Shown in pieces: positions 13,945 to 43,878 of a stretch of 64,000 bases of DNA. Position numbers and translations under genes: made by a program. The notes beneath the pieces were generated by a model that saw nothing but the letters and a program-made list of their open reading frames with translations, was not told the DNA's origin and made no database searches. Origin of the DNA: Parvularcula dongshanensis (lineage in GTDB: Bacteria > Pseudomonadota > Alphaproteobacteria > Caulobacterales > Parvularculaceae). Numbering within the stretch: position 1 is the first letter of the stretch; each line of letters starts with the position of its first letter. Location of the stretch: assembly GCF_014199615.1 (NCBI RefSeq), contig NZ_JACHOB010000003.1, positions 1 to 64,000 of the forward strand, in the 5' to 3' direction.

Positions 13945-13974
13945 GCCGGCGTGCCGTCGGAGCGGCACGCCGGC
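13945..13974 (-). terminator. Strong hairpin after the SulP gene
   Basis: Perfect 11-bp inverted repeat (GCCGGCGTGCC and its complement) with an 8-nt loop, seven bases after the SulP stop on the minus strand. It is followed by the partly T-rich TTCGTTCTTG. This fits a terminator or a partial read-through attenuator before the downstream gene. The T-tract is imperfect, so termination is inferred. Confidence 0.6.
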
Positions 13975-38611: not shown

Positions 38612-39355
38612 TCAACCCAGCGGCGCTATACCGTACCTCTGGCTTGTAAGAACGATCCCTGCGATCTGCGCGCCGACGCTGGTAGCGATGTTCAGCGACA
38701 CGACGACCGCAGCGAGAAGCGCAGCGCGCCATGCCCTCCCGAACGGGCCCTTCGTGCGGAACGCTCCGCGATAGCCCGTCTGCGTGTCGATGGCGAAGGT
38801 GATTGCCGCCAGACCGAGGGCGTAGGCCGTGAGGCTATCGCCCGGCACGAAGAGCATCATCGTCATGAAGACCGGCATCAGGCTGGCGCTCGGAACGATG
38901 ACCGCAAAGAAGTAGCGTTGGCGCAACGCAGCGGAGGTGCGCTCACCCCAGAAGGGATAGACGAGCGAAAGCGCGACCATGGTGACGATCTGAAGGATCG
39001 GTACGAGGCCGAAGATCCAAAGCACCGCTTCCTTGCCGATGTCGCCCATCGTCTTGCCGGGCGGAACGATGACGCCCGCCTCGGCGAAACCGGCGGCATA
39101 GGCGTCGATCATCCCGGTATTGCCGCCGATCCACCAGACCTTGAGGAGAGAGTAGAGAGCGAAGAAGGAAAGATAGAGCCGGATCGAGGGCGTGTAGGTC
39201 CCGTTCCAGTCGAGCGACCGCGCCGCCGCGAAGTAGCGCTTCGGCCGAGCCCAAAGCATGCGGACCGACCGAAGGCCGCGGACGTTCAGGCCGAAGAGGT
39301 CCTCGGCCAGCGCGTCCATCGGCAAGGTCGCGAGGTCGCGTGTCTGACTACTCAT
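38612..39355 (-). CDS. Integral membrane protein (DUF3667-like)
   Basis: A 247-residue protein with about five hydrophobic segments: near LYLSFFALYSLLKVWWIG, VLWIFGLVPILQIVTMVALSLVYP, YFFAVIVPSASLMPVFMTMMLF, a following Ala/Leu helix, and AALLAAVVVSLNIATSVG. The cytoplasmic N-terminus with RMLWARPKRYFAAAR and YTPSIRLYL is similar in layout to DUF3667/Yip1-like membrane proteins. Function unknown. Monocistronic, divergent from the acyltransferase operon. Confidence 0.75.
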   Translation of the reverse strand: MSSQTRDLATLPMDALAEDLFGLNVRGLRSVRMLWARPKRYFAAARSLDWNGTYTPSIRLYLSFFALYSLLKVWWIGGNTGMIDAYAAGFAEAGVIVPPGKTMGDIGKEAVLWIFGLVPILQIVTMVALSLVYPFWGERTSAALRQRYFFAVIVPSASLMPVFMTMMLFVPGDSLTAYALGLAAITFAIDTQTGYRGAFRTKGPFGRAWRAALLAAVVVSLNIATSVGAQIAGIVLTSQRYGIAPLG

Positions 39356-39530
39356 CGCCGCGTCTCCCTTCGCGAACTCTTCAAGCCTAGGGCCGCATCG
39401 AACGTTTGGCGAGGCGTAGGACCAGTACGCCGAGCAACCGAACCGTCTGTGGTCCTGACCTCGCCGGAGAGTGCGGGTCCGTCGCGCCGCTTCAAGCGGG
39501 CGACGACCGAACCTAACGCCCCCCCCAGCG

Positions 39531-39569
39531 GATATACCGGTTTACATCGTGAACCGGTATATCTATATC
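39531..39569 (+). promoter_or_regulatory. Promoter covered by a perfect 12-bp palindromic operator
   Basis: GATATACCGGTT (39531-39542) and its exact complement AACCGGTATATC (39552-39563) are separated by 9 bases. A -35 hexamer TTTACA (39541-39546) and, 17 bases on, a -10 hexamer TATATC (39564-39569) put the dyad over the -35 box and spacer, an ideal place for a repressor. The operon behind it ends with a winged-helix regulator gene, the obvious candidate to bind it. Confidence 0.75.
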
Positions 39570-39594
39570 GCGGTCTCTAGTATGGGAGAGGACG

Positions 39595-40770
39595 ATGTCT
39601 GACGTTGGAGACGAACGATTGCATGCCCTGGATGCCGTGCGCGGCGGCGCACTGTTCCTCGGGCTCGCCTTCCACGCCGGGTTGTCTTTTCTGCCGGGCG
39701 ATCAGGTGTGGCTTGTCATGGACCAGGCACGCAGCACTCCCATCGCCTGGCTAACCTTCGTTCTGCATATCTTCCGCATGGCGACCTTTTTCCTTCTCGC
39801 CGGGTTCTTCGGGCGTCTGGTTCTGCAGAGGAAAGGCTATGGCTACTTCGTCCGCAGCCGATCGAAGCGGATCCTTCTGCCGCTCCTCATCTTCTGGCCA
39901 CTCGTTACCGCGGCCTTCATTGGACTGATGGCTTGGCTCTATCGCGGCAAGTTCGGCCTGACGGCTGAGCAGCTTCCCCCGCCGCCCCCGCCGAGCATCG
40001 ACACCTTCCCGCTGACACACCTTTGGTTCCTCTACGTCCTGATTTTGTTCTACGTGGCCATGCTCATCTTGCGCCCGGTGCTGGCCCTCGATCGGGGCGA
40101 ACGTCTGCGTGCCTTCGCTGGCACCGCCGCGGCGTGGAGCATCAGGCGCGGGTTGCTGCAGGTTGTCCTTGCGGTTCCCGTCGCCACGGCGCTGCTGTGC
40201 CAACAAGGCTGGCCACTGTGGTTCGGCGTGCGGACACCCGACACGGGACTGCTCCCGAACACGCCGGCGCTGGTGACCTACGGCAGCGCCTTCCTACTCG
40301 GTTGGGTGCTGAACCGCCCCGGCGAACCCCTGTCCGCCATGCGAAGCAATTGGCCTGCGAACCTTCTTGCCGCAGGGGCATTCACCGCGATCTGTCTCGT
40401 CCTCCTCGGCGGAAAGGCGACTGGCGGATCGGATATCACGGGCGTCGAGCGGGTCGGCTACGCCGCGAGCTACGCGCTGGCGATCTGGACCTGGACCTTC
40501 GGCCTGATCGGGGCAGCGCTGACCTTCCTCAACGGTGAGCGCCGCTGGGTGCGCTACGTCGCGGACTCGTCCTACTGGGTCTACATCGTCCACTTGCCGA
40601 TCGTGTTCGCGCTGCAGATCGCGGTGATGGACCTGCCATGGCCTGCGCCTGCGAAGTACGCGGTGATCCTGGGCGCGACGCTCGCCCTGACGCTCGCGAG
40701 CTATCAGCTGCTGGTCCGGCACAGCTTCGTCGGTAGTCTTCTAAACGGACCGAGGAGGAAACGCTCATGA
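39595..40770 (+). CDS. Acyltransferase 3 family membrane protein (OpgC-like)
   Basis: A 391-residue membrane enzyme with about ten hydrophobic segments. The family signature LDAVRGGALFLGLAFHA has the conserved Arg and His near the first helix, and RMATFFLLAGFFGRLVLQRKG follows. The last part, SSYWVYIVHLPIVFALQ, is the usual tenth-helix motif. Such proteins O-acylate (succinylate or acetylate) periplasmic glucans or other envelope glycans. The ribosome site GGGAGAGG precedes ATG 39595. First gene of a three-gene operon with an operator in its promoter. Confidence 0.88.
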   Translation: MSDVGDERLHALDAVRGGALFLGLAFHAGLSFLPGDQVWLVMDQARSTPIAWLTFVLHIFRMATFFLLAGFFGRLVLQRKGYGYFVRSRSKRILLPLLIFWPLVTAAFIGLMAWLYRGKFGLTAEQLPPPPPPSIDTFPLTHLWFLYVLILFYVAMLILRPVLALDRGERLRAFAGTAAAWSIRRGLLQVVLAVPVATALLCQQGWPLWFGVRTPDTGLLPNTPALVTYGSAFLLGWVLNRPGEPLSAMRSNWPANLLAAGAFTAICLVLLGGKATGGSDITGVERVGYAASYALAIWTWTFGLIGAALTFLNGERRWVRYVADSSYWVYIVHLPIVFALQIAVMDLPWPAPAKYAVILGATLALTLASYQLLVRHSFVGSLLNGPRRKRS

Positions 40771-41405
40771 CCTCGCAGCTCCGCGACCCCGCGAACGAGG
40801 ACCAGGCCCGCGCCGACCTCGCCTTCCTTCGAAACGTCGTGTCCGGGGAGCGACCGTTCGGTCGCAGCATGGGGATCGTCTACGGCGCGGCAGGTCTGCT
40901 CTACGGAACGCAGTGTGCGGTTTCTCTCGCCCACTTGTGGCGGCCGGGCGGCCTGTCCCCATGGGTCAACCTTGCCAACGCCGTGCTGCCGACGGTCCTG
41001 TTTGTCCTGGTCCTGGTGACGGCGGGCAGGGCGGATCGCCATGGAGGCGGCGTGAAGGGGCCGGTCGGGCGAGCCATCGATGCGGCCTTCAGCGGAACGG
41101 GTCTCGCGATCCTCGTCTTGATCGTCGTGTTCGGTGTCAGCGCGTATCGACAGGACAGCATGACCATGTGGCTCTATCACCCCGTGGTGGTCTGTGTGCT
41201 CCAGGGGGCGGTTTGGTACGGCGCCGCCGTACTCAGGCGACGTTGTTGGATGGGCGGCGTCGCGGCTGGATGGCTCCTCAGCGGCCTGGCCGCAGGGCTC
41301 CTCGTCGAGAACCTCGAAGCCTACCTTCTCGTGCTGACCGTCGCTTTGTTCGCCTTCATGGCGGTGCCCGGCTACGTCCTGCTGCGGTTGAGCCGGACGG
41401 GCTGA
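40767..41405 (+). CDS. Conserved membrane protein of unknown function
   Basis: A 212-residue protein. A soluble N-terminus (DPANEDQARADLAFLRNVVSG) is followed by about six hydrophobic segments, among them SMGIVYGAAGLLYG, VLPTVLFVLVLVTAG, GLAILVLIVVFGVSAY and YLLVLTVALFAFMAVPGYVLL. The ATG overlaps the acyltransferase stop (ATGA). No reaction can be assigned. Its coupling to both an acyltransferase and a regulator suggests a shared envelope function. Confidence 0.78.
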   Translation: MTSQLRDPANEDQARADLAFLRNVVSGERPFGRSMGIVYGAAGLLYGTQCAVSLAHLWRPGGLSPWVNLANAVLPTVLFVLVLVTAGRADRHGGGVKGPVGRAIDAAFSGTGLAILVLIVVFGVSAYRQDSMTMWLYHPVVVCVLQGAVWYGAAVLRRRCWMGGVAAGWLLSGLAAGLLVENLEAYLLVLTVALFAFMAVPGYVLLRLSRTG

Positions 41406-41419
41406 CGGCGAGAGGCTTC

Positions 41420-41722
41420 GTGAGTGAGATCGAGAAGATCGATGAGGTCATCCACGGCCGCCTGCGCCTGGCGATCATGGCCTACCTCGCCAACGCCGAG
41501 AGCGGCTCGTTCAACGAGCTGATGGACGCGCTCGGCGCGAGCAAAGGGAATCTCTCCGTACAGATCAGGAAGCTCGAAGATGCTGGCTACATCGAAGTCG
41601 ACAAGCGCATCGTGGCGCGCAAGACGCTCACGACGTGCCGGCTGACGAAGGACGGCAAGGCCGCGTTTCGGACTTATCTCGACAACTTGACGAGCATGCT
41701 CGGGCTCCCGACGCCGAAATGA
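41420..41722 (+). CDS. Winged-helix transcriptional regulator (HTH_34-like)
   Basis: A 100-residue single-domain winged helix. The body reads VIHGRLRLAIMAYLANAE, recognition region SFNELMDALGASKGNLSVQIRKLEDAGYI and wing VARKTLTTCRLTKDG. This is the ArsR/MarR-like HTH_34 type. GTG 41420 follows GAGAGG by four bases; longer upstream frames overlap the membrane-protein gene. As the last gene of the operon it probably represses the promoter at 39531-39569. Confidence 0.85.
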   Translation: MSEIEKIDEVIHGRLRLAIMAYLANAESGSFNELMDALGASKGNLSVQIRKLEDAGYIEVDKRIVARKTLTTCRLTKDGKAAFRTYLDNLTSMLGLPTPK

Positions 41723-42162
41723 TCGTGGCTACTACTTCGAGCTGACGCGGCCACTCGTCCAATCCTGGCTGGTCGTCACGGAGAAGGGCTCCCGCACGCT
41801 CAACGTCGGCCCGACGAGGGACCGGGCCAAGACGTACGAGCTCGAAGAGGATAGCCAGGCGACACCCTCCGCGACCAAACGCCAAGGCCAGCGTGAAGCT
41901 GCCCCGTCGGAGCAGGGCAGGCCCTTCGCCGCTACCTTCGAACGAGCCGCCCCCAACCGCCCGCGAAGGCACGAAGCAGGCGCATTCGGTCAGGGGGCGA
42001 TCACCGGGGCGGGCTGGTCGGGGGCGCGCCTCTTCGGGCTCGCCGGCAAGGGGGCGGAACTGGGAGCCGGCGCGGATCGCTCCGAGCGAACCGATGCTTA
42101 GGTCGGCAGCTTCCTCGCACCTTCCATCGCTGAGGCGATCCTGGAAGGCATTAGGATATGAG
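41723..42162. other. Startless open frame beside the tRNA-Ser 3' end
   Basis: A plus-strand frame is open from before 41727 to a TAG at 42102-42104 (about 125 codons) and reads like protein (GYYFELTRPLVQSWLVVTEK and KTYELEEDSQA), but it contains no ATG, GTG or TTG start. It ends about 60 bases from the 3' end of tRNA-Ser. It may be the truncated end of a gene from an element once inserted at the tRNA. A hairpin at 42120-42148 (CCTTCC/GGAAGG with inner ATCGC/GCGAT) lies just beyond the tRNA. Confidence 0.4.
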
Positions 42163-42252
42163 TGGCGGAGGAGGTGGGATTCGAACCCACGGTACGCTTG
42201 CGCGCACGCCGGTTTTCAAGACCGGTGCATTCGACCGCTCTGCCACTCCTCC
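42163..42252 (-). tRNA. tRNA-Ser (UGA anticodon)
   Basis: A complete class II tRNA. The acceptor stem is GGAGGAG paired with CTCCTCC. The anticodon arm is CCGGT-CTTGAAA-ACCGG with anticodon TGA at 42218-42216. A long variable arm (CGTGCGCGCAAGCGTACC region) and the T-loop GTTCGAATC follow. Discriminator G and an encoded CCA complete it. Confidence 0.97.
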
Positions 42253-42264
42253 GTTCAGGAGCCT

Positions 42265-43878
42265 CTAGCCGCCGTAGAGGCGGTCCGGCAACCACGTCGC
42301 GAGCCCTGGGACGAGGGCGAGGACGCCGAGCATGAGGAGCTGGATGAACACGAAGGGCACGGCACCCTTGTAGATGGCGCTCGTCGCCAGCTCGGGCGGC
42401 GCGACGCCGCGCAGGTAGAAGAGAGCGAATCCGAAGGGCGGGGTGAGGAAGCTTGTCTGGAGGTTCACCGCCATCATCACCCCGAGCCAGATGGGGTCGA
42501 CGCCCGCCGCCAAGAGCGCCGGAGCGACGAGAGGCACGACGACGAGGGTGATCTCGATGAAGTCGAGAAAGAACCCCAACAGGAACATGACCAGCATCAC
42601 GACCGCGATCGCACCGACGGGCCCGCCCGGCGTGCGCGCGAGGGCCGCCGTCACCGTCTCGTCGCCGCCAAGGCCGCGGAAGACCAAGCTGAACAGCGCC
42701 GCGCCGATCAGGATGGTGAAGACCATTCCCGAGATCTCGGTCGCTTGACGCGCGACGGGGGCGAGGAGGCCGGACCGCGCGAACGACCACGCGGCGGCGA
42801 GCGTACCGGCGACGAGCACCAAGCTGGCTACGCTTGCGGCGGCGATGGCGATTCCTTCGTCCCGCGTTCGATCGGGCCGACCGAGCCGAAGGTCGAAGTG
42901 CCATACCAGCACGGCTAGAACCGGCACGGCCAGAAGCCCGGCTATCGTCAGCCATCGCGCCCCCGGGCGGGCCGTGCGCCGCCGACTGCCCGCGATGAGA
43001 AGCGCGCCGAGAGCGCCAACGGCGGCCGCTTCGGTCGCCGTGGCGGTGCCCGTCAGGATGGACCCAAGGACCGCTGCGATCAGGACGAGCGGGGCGGGGA
43101 GGCTGCGGAGCGCCGCCTTCACGCCCTCGCCGAAGCCGAAACGGTCCTCGGGCGGCACGGCGGGGCTCGTATCGCCTTTGAAGAGCGCGAGTCCGATAAG
43201 ATACGTCACGTACAGGGTGACGAGAACGAGGCCGGGGATCAGGGCGCCCGCGAAGAGGTCGCCGACCGATACGGTCTCGGGAGAGAAAACGCCGCTCGCG
43301 AGCTGGCTCTCCTGATAGGCGTTGGACATCACGTCGCCGAGCAGGATGAGCACGATAGACGGGGGGATGATCTGGCCGAGCGTACCCGCCGCTGCAATGC
43401 TGCCGGCCGCCAAGGCCGGGTCGTAGCCACGCTTGAGCATGGTTGGCAGGCTGAGGAGGCCCATGGTGACGACGGTCGCGCCGACAATGCCGGTGGAGGC
43501 AGCGAGAAGGGCACCCACGACCATCACCGATAGGCCGAGGCCGCCGCGCATCGAGCCGAATAGCCGCGCCATCGTGTCGAGCAGCTCCTCCGCGATCTTC
43601 GCCCGCTCGAGGATCACGCCCATCAGGACGAAGAGGGGCACGGCGAGCAAGATCTGGTTCTTCACGATACCGAATATCCGTATCGGGAAGGGGTCGGCGA
43701 TGAAAGCCGGATCGAACGATCCCATGGCAAGGCCGAGAAGACCGAAGAGCAGCGCGACGCCGGCGAGCGTGAAGGCAGCCGGAAACCCCATGAGGAGCAG
43801 CGCGCAGAGCGTGAGCACCATCGCGATGTCGAGCCAGCCCGCGCAGGCGCAGAAGCAAAGGACGACTTGGTCCCACAT
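42265..43878 (-). CDS. dctM: TRAP transporter large permease (DctM type)
   Basis: A 537-residue inner-membrane permease with about twelve or more hydrophobic segments. Typical are LLAVPLFVLMGVILERA, GIVGATVVTMGLLSLPTML, GTLGQIIPPSIVLILLGDV and LQTSFLTPPFGFALFYLRG. It is longer than most DctM proteins because of an insertion of about 100 residues in the middle. ATG 43878 overlaps the DctQ stop (TGATG); the open frame upstream was ignored. It uses the sodium or proton gradient to import organic acids with DctQ and DctP. Confidence 0.93.
   Translation of the reverse strand: MWDQVVLCFCACAGWLDIAMVLTLCALLLMGFPAAFTLAGVALLFGLLGLAMGSFDPAFIADPFPIRIFGIVKNQILLAVPLFVLMGVILERAKIAEELLDTMARLFGSMRGGLGLSVMVVGALLAASTGIVGATVVTMGLLSLPTMLKRGYDPALAAGSIAAAGTLGQIIPPSIVLILLGDVMSNAYQESQLASGVFSPETVSVGDLFAGALIPGLVLVTLYVTYLIGLALFKGDTSPAVPPEDRFGFGEGVKAALRSLPAPLVLIAAVLGSILTGTATATEAAAVGALGALLIAGSRRRTARPGARWLTIAGLLAVPVLAVLVWHFDLRLGRPDRTRDEGIAIAAASVASLVLVAGTLAAAWSFARSGLLAPVARQATEISGMVFTILIGAALFSLVFRGLGGDETVTAALARTPGGPVGAIAVVMLVMFLLGFFLDFIEITLVVVPLVAPALLAAGVDPIWLGVMMAVNLQTSFLTPPFGFALFYLRGVAPPELATSAIYKGAVPFVFIQLLMLGVLALVPGLATWLPDRLYGG

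Follow-up and report, generated by a model that had tools for sequence, protein, structure and literature searches.

Which protein controls the three-gene acyltransferase operon at 39531-41722 of this stretch of the Parvularcula dongshanensis genome (64,000 nucleotides, hereafter the window), and what does the palindrome in front of the operon contribute to that control? The reading favoured here, held at a probability of about two in three, is that the operon is autoregulated: a dimer of the winged-helix protein HTH_34 would repress the operon through the palindrome, the membrane protein MID would relieve the repression upon an envelope signal, and the acyltransferase AT3 would then acylate a glycan.

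The first gene (39595-40770, plus strand) encodes AT3, a 391-aa protein of family PF01757 (109.1 bits against a cut-off of 31), in which the motifs R16-X10-H27 and R89-x-x-R92 are invariant in 10/10 hand-chosen aligned sequences. An R-X10-H motif in helix 1 and an RXXR motif mark AT3 enzymes in the available part of PMC9833829, and the window's AT3 carries both. The MID gene (40767-41405, plus strand) overlaps the AT3 gene by 4 nt and encodes a 212-aa membrane protein of no named family, with no Pfam match up to E 1 and no NCBIfam match over the cut-off. Its structural model (pLDDT 91.3) consists of seven helices, a short N-terminal one followed by six that are long enough to span the membrane, and the model suggests that the first helix, which contains the invariant Asp17, is likely cytosolic. 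A fold search yielded no confident match for MID, the best of 156 weak PDB matches having an E-value of 0.87 or worse; TMEM45A, the best looking at TM 0.45, was not used. The third gene (41420-41722, plus strand, GTG start) encodes the 100-aa winged-helix regulator HTH_34 (PF13601, 92.9 bits against a cut-off of 27), which is modelled with a pLDDT of 94.1 and has a recognition helix comprising residues 42-54, including Lys42, Ser46, and Gln48. Its best PDB match, whether ranked on sequence or on fold (TM 0.87), is 1ub9, the structure of PH1061, the solved member of the HTH_34 family, with which the window's regulator shares sequence family and fold. The gene content is as the first-pass annotation described it: an acyltransferase, a membrane protein in the middle, and a one-domain winged-helix protein at the end. 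A divergent 247-aa open reading frame with no Pfam or NCBIfam match over the cut-off lies upstream of the operon on the minus strand (38612-39355).

The palindrome, GATATACCGGTT-9-AACCGGTATATC, has perfect 12-bp arms and occupies 39531-39563, where the inverted-repeat search also scores it as a 15-3-15 repeat at 93%. Perfect 12-bp arms separated by at most 20 nt begin at six positions (five places) in the window, whereas 20 dinucleotide shuffles gave 0.1 such positions on average; the perfection of the arms alone is thus not unique within the window. The copy at 39531-39563 is the only one with arms of at most 50% GC, and no repeat of this kind occurred in a second set of 20 shuffles. Other inverted repeats in the window with perfect 12-bp arms and a short spacer are located at 13945, 23380, 52106, and 61394, and each of them is GC-rich. 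Underneath the palindrome lies a promoter predicted from sequence (39541-39569, plus strand), composed of a -35 element TTTACA (39541-39546), a 17-nt spacer, and a -10 element TATATC (39564-39569). By our own count it agrees with the sigma-70 consensus at 9/12 positions, and a sigma-70 promoter is plausible; a consensus promoter scan of 38800-42400 listed no promoter, and omits this pair because the -10 element must end in T to be accepted. The palindrome spans the -35 box and the entire spacer, a position that would agree with repression.

Whether the palindrome accompanies the operon in relatives was examined in 79 loci that carry an AT3-MID-HTH_34 operon (triads), of which 28 without upstream DNA and 10 with an already used regulator were set aside, leaving 41 with the window's own included. 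Within 200 nt upstream, the window core GTTTACANNNTGAAC is found in 29/41 triads (28/40 without the window) if up to two mismatches are allowed and in 37/41 if up to three are allowed; dinucleotide shuffles predict 0.2 and 1.6, respectively. A related site is recognisable by eye in three more (L116, L123, and L130), and the site is absent upstream of one of the 41, L032, whose AT3 reading frame is discontinuous in alignments. By these counts, which answer a check that the first-pass annotation had asked for, the palindrome is a conserved putative operator that travels with the operon. The form in which it is conserved differs from the one originally put forward, in which the perfect 12-9-12 repeat was the ideal operator. 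Among aligned relatives, the conserved element has its centre at 39547 and covers approximately 23 bp, with the rough sequence ACnnGTTTACAnnnTRRACnnGT and a conserved core GTTTACATCGTGAAC at 39540-39554, whereas the outermost GATAT/ATATC arms show no conservation. Positions ±8 and ±9 are complementary in 25 and 17 of 39 triads, with 22.2 and 15.3 after shuffling, and hence without excess covariation; the perfect 12-bp arms of the window therefore seem to be partly a local accident.

The 23-bp pattern is found in 4/299 genomes of the order, with one match each, all preceding an AT3-MID-HTH_34 operon, and with none in a reversed control; because neither the window's own site nor most triads fit the pattern, these matches are evidence of specificity and not of coverage. 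In the organism's own genome, a 17-bp core with at most three mismatches occurs at five places, of which only the window's is exact; the four others carry three mismatches each, and a reversed control gives two. There is no sign in this genome of a larger regulon beyond the operon.

The aligned sites also bear on how the operator and the promoter are combined. In 39 of the 41 triads (all except L032 and L123), the left half-site has C at the inner position specific to the -35 element in 37/39, whereas its mirror image, a G in the right half-site, occurs in 1/39, an asymmetry that fits a left half-site doubling as the -35 box; the -10 region of these triads has T or C in 34/39, followed by A in 30/39. 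The site extends from the -35 box across the spacer, and MerR-type activators act from such spacers, so that the HTH_34 regulator might be thought to activate its operon instead of repressing it. This is very unlikely, since the -35 box lies inside the site, the spacer has the normal length of 17 nt, a MerR-like protein is absent, and a dimer sitting there should obstruct the polymerase.

The membrane protein and the regulator form a unit that extends well beyond the triads. MID homologs are present in 212/299 genomes of the order (E 1e-10) and HTH_34 in 207/299 (E 1e-20). In the loci examined, with redundant loci counted, HTH_34 lies directly downstream of 123/135 MID matches; of the other 12, six run off the locus, four are first copies of tandem MIDs, and two are in tandem in L134, where 126 nt remain. 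AT3 lies directly upstream in 79 of the 123 MID-HTH_34 pairs and is not detected in the remaining 44 (redundant loci again counted), and in one genus (g18) it is replaced by a 21%-identical member of PF01757 while MID is retained. Open frames of 428-1277 aa around MID in six genomes raised the possibility of an AT3-MID fusion, which was rejected, as the loci show separate genes in different frames. A site of the form STTTRNANNNYAAAS is found upstream in 33/39 MID-HTH_34 loci without detected AT3, compared with 0.7 expected. Judged from gene neighbourhoods, the core of the system is the MID-HTH_34 pair, often without AT3. The earlier suggestion of an envelope-modification module holds in one part, in that the AT3 family makes an envelope role likely, and changes in another, the system being centred on the pair and not on the acyltransferase. 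In one genome (G262:C11) MID is matched five times, including one tandem pair.

This pairing is also what separates the favoured reading from one in which the regulator binds the palindrome and senses a small ligand of its own, with MID either assisting the acyltransferase, as a subunit or partner, or acting as a separate effector. The MID gene does sit between the enzyme and regulator genes and overlaps the former, and the 1ub9 match gives the regulator a MarR/ArsR-like fold, of a kind that commonly binds ligands. MID nevertheless adjoins HTH_34 far more constantly than it adjoins AT3, and it stays in place where the first gene has been exchanged, which makes such a division of labour unlikely.

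The identity of the palindrome-binding protein was approached by a scan of all regulator columns in 133 HTH_34 regulators with a site, in which each varying operator base was predicted by leave-one-out. The pair at ±7 is best predicted by residue 42 (0.977, baseline 0.56, next column 0.871), the pair at ±5 by residue 46 (1.000, baseline 0.92, next column 0.975; 119 rows, with 14 that have other pairs left out), and the pair at ±3 by residue 48 (0.880, baseline 0.68, next column 0.820), and all three residues lie within the modelled recognition helix. Among the 133 regulators, residue 42 goes with C at ±7 when it is Asp (70/70), Pro (2/2), or Trp (2/2), and with G when it is Gln, Asn, Ala, Arg, Lys, Ser, or Gly (58/58). 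At ±3, Gln48 goes with A:T in 29/31 and His48 with some G:C in 88/101; as the latter lacks G:C in 13/101, and in 7/29 of the prospective set described below, the ±3 rule is best regarded as a tendency.

The ±7 and ±3 rules were written down from a comparison of helices and sites, and only afterwards was a fresh set of 60 loci retrieved, 29 of them belonging to the order and 31 lying beyond it. The usable loci numbered 33, including 8 from beyond the order; L152 was excluded because its site lies inside a gene, L161 and L176 because they have a 10/11 match and no regex motif (later a GNLE helix), and the remainder for want of a 10/11 site or of the regex motif. The ±7 rule held in 33/33 usable loci, and at ±3 Gln went with A:T in 2/3 and His with some G:C in 22/29. 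A plasmid set was reduced from 26 records to 20 listed and 13 loci taken, spanning Bacteroidota, Actinomycetota, Chloroflexota, Thermomicrobiota, Alphaproteobacteria, and Archaea. Nine of these have a site, which in L213 lies far upstream; L215 has the helix motif and no site. The ±7 rule is obeyed in 8/9, with Asp opposite C in 4/4 and Ala or Arg opposite G in 4/4, and an archaeal Glu goes with an asymmetric site, while the ±3 rule is followed in 9/9. In all 13 plasmid loci a multi-TM open reading frame precedes the regulator, and the cargo varies, with creD in Bacteroides and ABC transporter genes in Thermomicrobium. The ±5 rule, by which Ser or Ala at residue 46 goes with T:A (43/43, L152 included) and Gly, Glu, or Asp with C:G (10/10), was found in these same prospective and plasmid loci and is not itself prospective. 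All 8/8 family members without the xGNL helix motif have no site, and 12/73 later loci have the motif and no site, five of them of the GNLG type and some without the upstream DNA of a triad.

It is conceivable that another cellular protein binds the palindrome and that the neighbouring HTH_34 is coincidental, but this is highly improbable: for each of three operator bases, the best predictor is a column in the recognition helix of the local regulator, the site follows the HTH_34 regulator into other phyla and to other cargo genes, and a second MID-HTH_34 pair in the organism's own genome (C1:453113-454029) has its own site, GTTTGAAATGCAAAC, and combines Asn42 and His48 with GTTTG..CAAAC as the rules ask. 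Shared descent inflates the residue-base counts and to that extent weakens the matching. In a tree of 110 of the regulators, built with the two trait columns removed, residue 42 and the ±7 base each change five times, with only two independent pairs on supported branches, so that no significant sign test is possible for the ±7 rule. The operon's own HTH_34 regulator is very probably the binder of the palindrome, and the matching points in the direction of the self-regulation that the first-pass annotation had proposed for an operator over the -35 box.

In the mechanism suggested by these data, an HTH_34 dimer bound to the palindrome would cover the -35 box and spacer and thereby hold down expression of its own operon, with the recognition helix reading the outer core through residue 42 at pair ±7, residue 46 at pair ±5, and residue 48 at pair ±3. 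As the constant companion of the regulator, the six-TM protein MID would sense the state of the membrane or envelope and weaken the hold of the regulator on DNA, probably by binding it via the cytosolic N-terminal helix. Release of the regulator would then lead to increased levels of AT3 and to acylation of a glycan at the outer side of the inner membrane.

An envelope-modification role for AT3 is likely from its family, and the available parts of PMC9558356 and PMC9833829 describe AT3 enzymes of the MdoC/OpgC type that have PF01757, R-X10-H, and RXXR in common with the window's AT3. The enzyme could be taken for the organism's periplasmic-glucan succinyltransferase MdoC/OpgC, as the best named model is MdoC (NF003014, 143.2 bits) and the genome also carries MdoG (E 1e-176). 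MdoG is needed for glucan synthesis. The score of AT3, however, is far below the equivalog cut-off of 338 of that model, three genomes from the same genus as the window (G004, G007, and G009) have the triad and are without MdoG, and no association with MdoG is found across the order: MdoG occurs in 9/60 genomes with a triad-type MID (best match at most 1e-60, by which G050 at E 1.1e-60 falls outside) and in 43/239 others (p 0.70). As MdoG is no commoner in triad-type genomes, the data lend no support to periplasmic glucans as a substrate general to the order, and assignment of this AT3 as MdoC/OpgC is quite unlikely.

Among known systems, the closest in design is the HAAS-PadR dyad, in which, according to the available part of PMC11237479, a stand-alone winged helix is coupled in an operon with a membrane protein, an arrangement proposed as an alternative to two-component systems. 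The window's pair shares this arrangement and differs in its families: MID has no HAAS/DUF1700 domain among Pfam matches up to E 1, and the PadR match of the regulator (14.3 bits) is below the cut-off of 27. On these sequence tests, the MID-HTH_34 pair would work like that system without being a member of it. Similarly, the Listeria PadR repressor LltR, as described in the accessible text of PMC6624303, shares its operon with a DUF1700 protein that spans the membrane several times, and the operon is strongly induced when the repressor is lost; the regulator and the membrane protein belong to other families there, and no AT3-type acyltransferase appears in the operon as that text gives it. An ArsR/SmtB-type comparison gives 38.1 bits with HTH_5 (cut-off 22), far below the score with HTH_34, while the ArsR/SmtB metalloregulator model NF033788 gives 28.4 bits against a cut-off of 55, and in 34 regulators no column that is invariant or nearly so holds a Cys, as conserved metal binding would require. 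Searches of the literature for 'PF13601' or 'HTH_34' gave no match, those for 'PH1061' gave unrelated matches only, and neither any of 12 operator 15-mers nor a described operator or partner for the HTH_34 family was found, in a body of text that excludes most subscription papers, so that an earlier description is possible. By this comparison, what may be new here is the pairing of a stand-alone winged helix of the HTH_34 family with the membrane protein MID, the kind of pairing being already known from HAAS-PadR.

Winged-helix repressors are very common, and their sites can seldom be predicted from protein sequence. Here, three residues of the recognition helix co-vary with three operator bases from Alphaproteobacteria to Archaea, which may make the sites, and with them the controlled genes, predictable for many unstudied regulators; the wiring of such operons would become readable from a conserved switch and from three amino acids that track three bases. 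The arrangement further points to a compact coupling of membrane and transcription without a kinase, and could provide a handle on the timing of surface-glycan acylation in these bacteria. More tentatively, and with somewhat less than even odds, MID-HTH_34 may represent one branch of a widespread and so far undescribed class of dyads that signal from the membrane in both bacteria and archaea, in which a small multi-TM protein would control a stand-alone winged helix on a near-universal operator, [C/G]T[T/C]T[A/G]nAnnn[T/C]A[A/G]A[G/C]. In such a class, the code of 42/±7, 46/±5, and 48/±3 would predict the sites, and the cargo would be exchanged, with AT3 in the window, CreD in Bacteroides, and an ABC transporter in Thermomicrobium.

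Several loci show further variations in layout. In a Bacteroides finegoldii plasmid record (L221), a membrane protein, HTH_34, and creD follow one another in a row, and CTTTGTATCACAAAG lies approximately 640 nt upstream of the HTH_34 match. In an Actinomyces oris plasmid record (L214), the near-identical sites GTTTGAAACGCAAAC and GTTTGCAACGCAAAC lie 38 nt from each other, in front of genes for a hypothetical protein and for a transcriptional regulator. Four loci (L166, L167, L169, and L176) encode HTH_34 proteins with a DGNL[E/D]AH helix and carry two palindromes of the CTCTGnAnnnCAGAG type, 31-35 nt apart, approximately 1.1 kb upstream. A 3-kb contig of the organism's own genome (L004, G000:C14) carries a divergent HTH_34 with a DSALSKH helix, which follows a small open reading frame with hydrophobic stretches.
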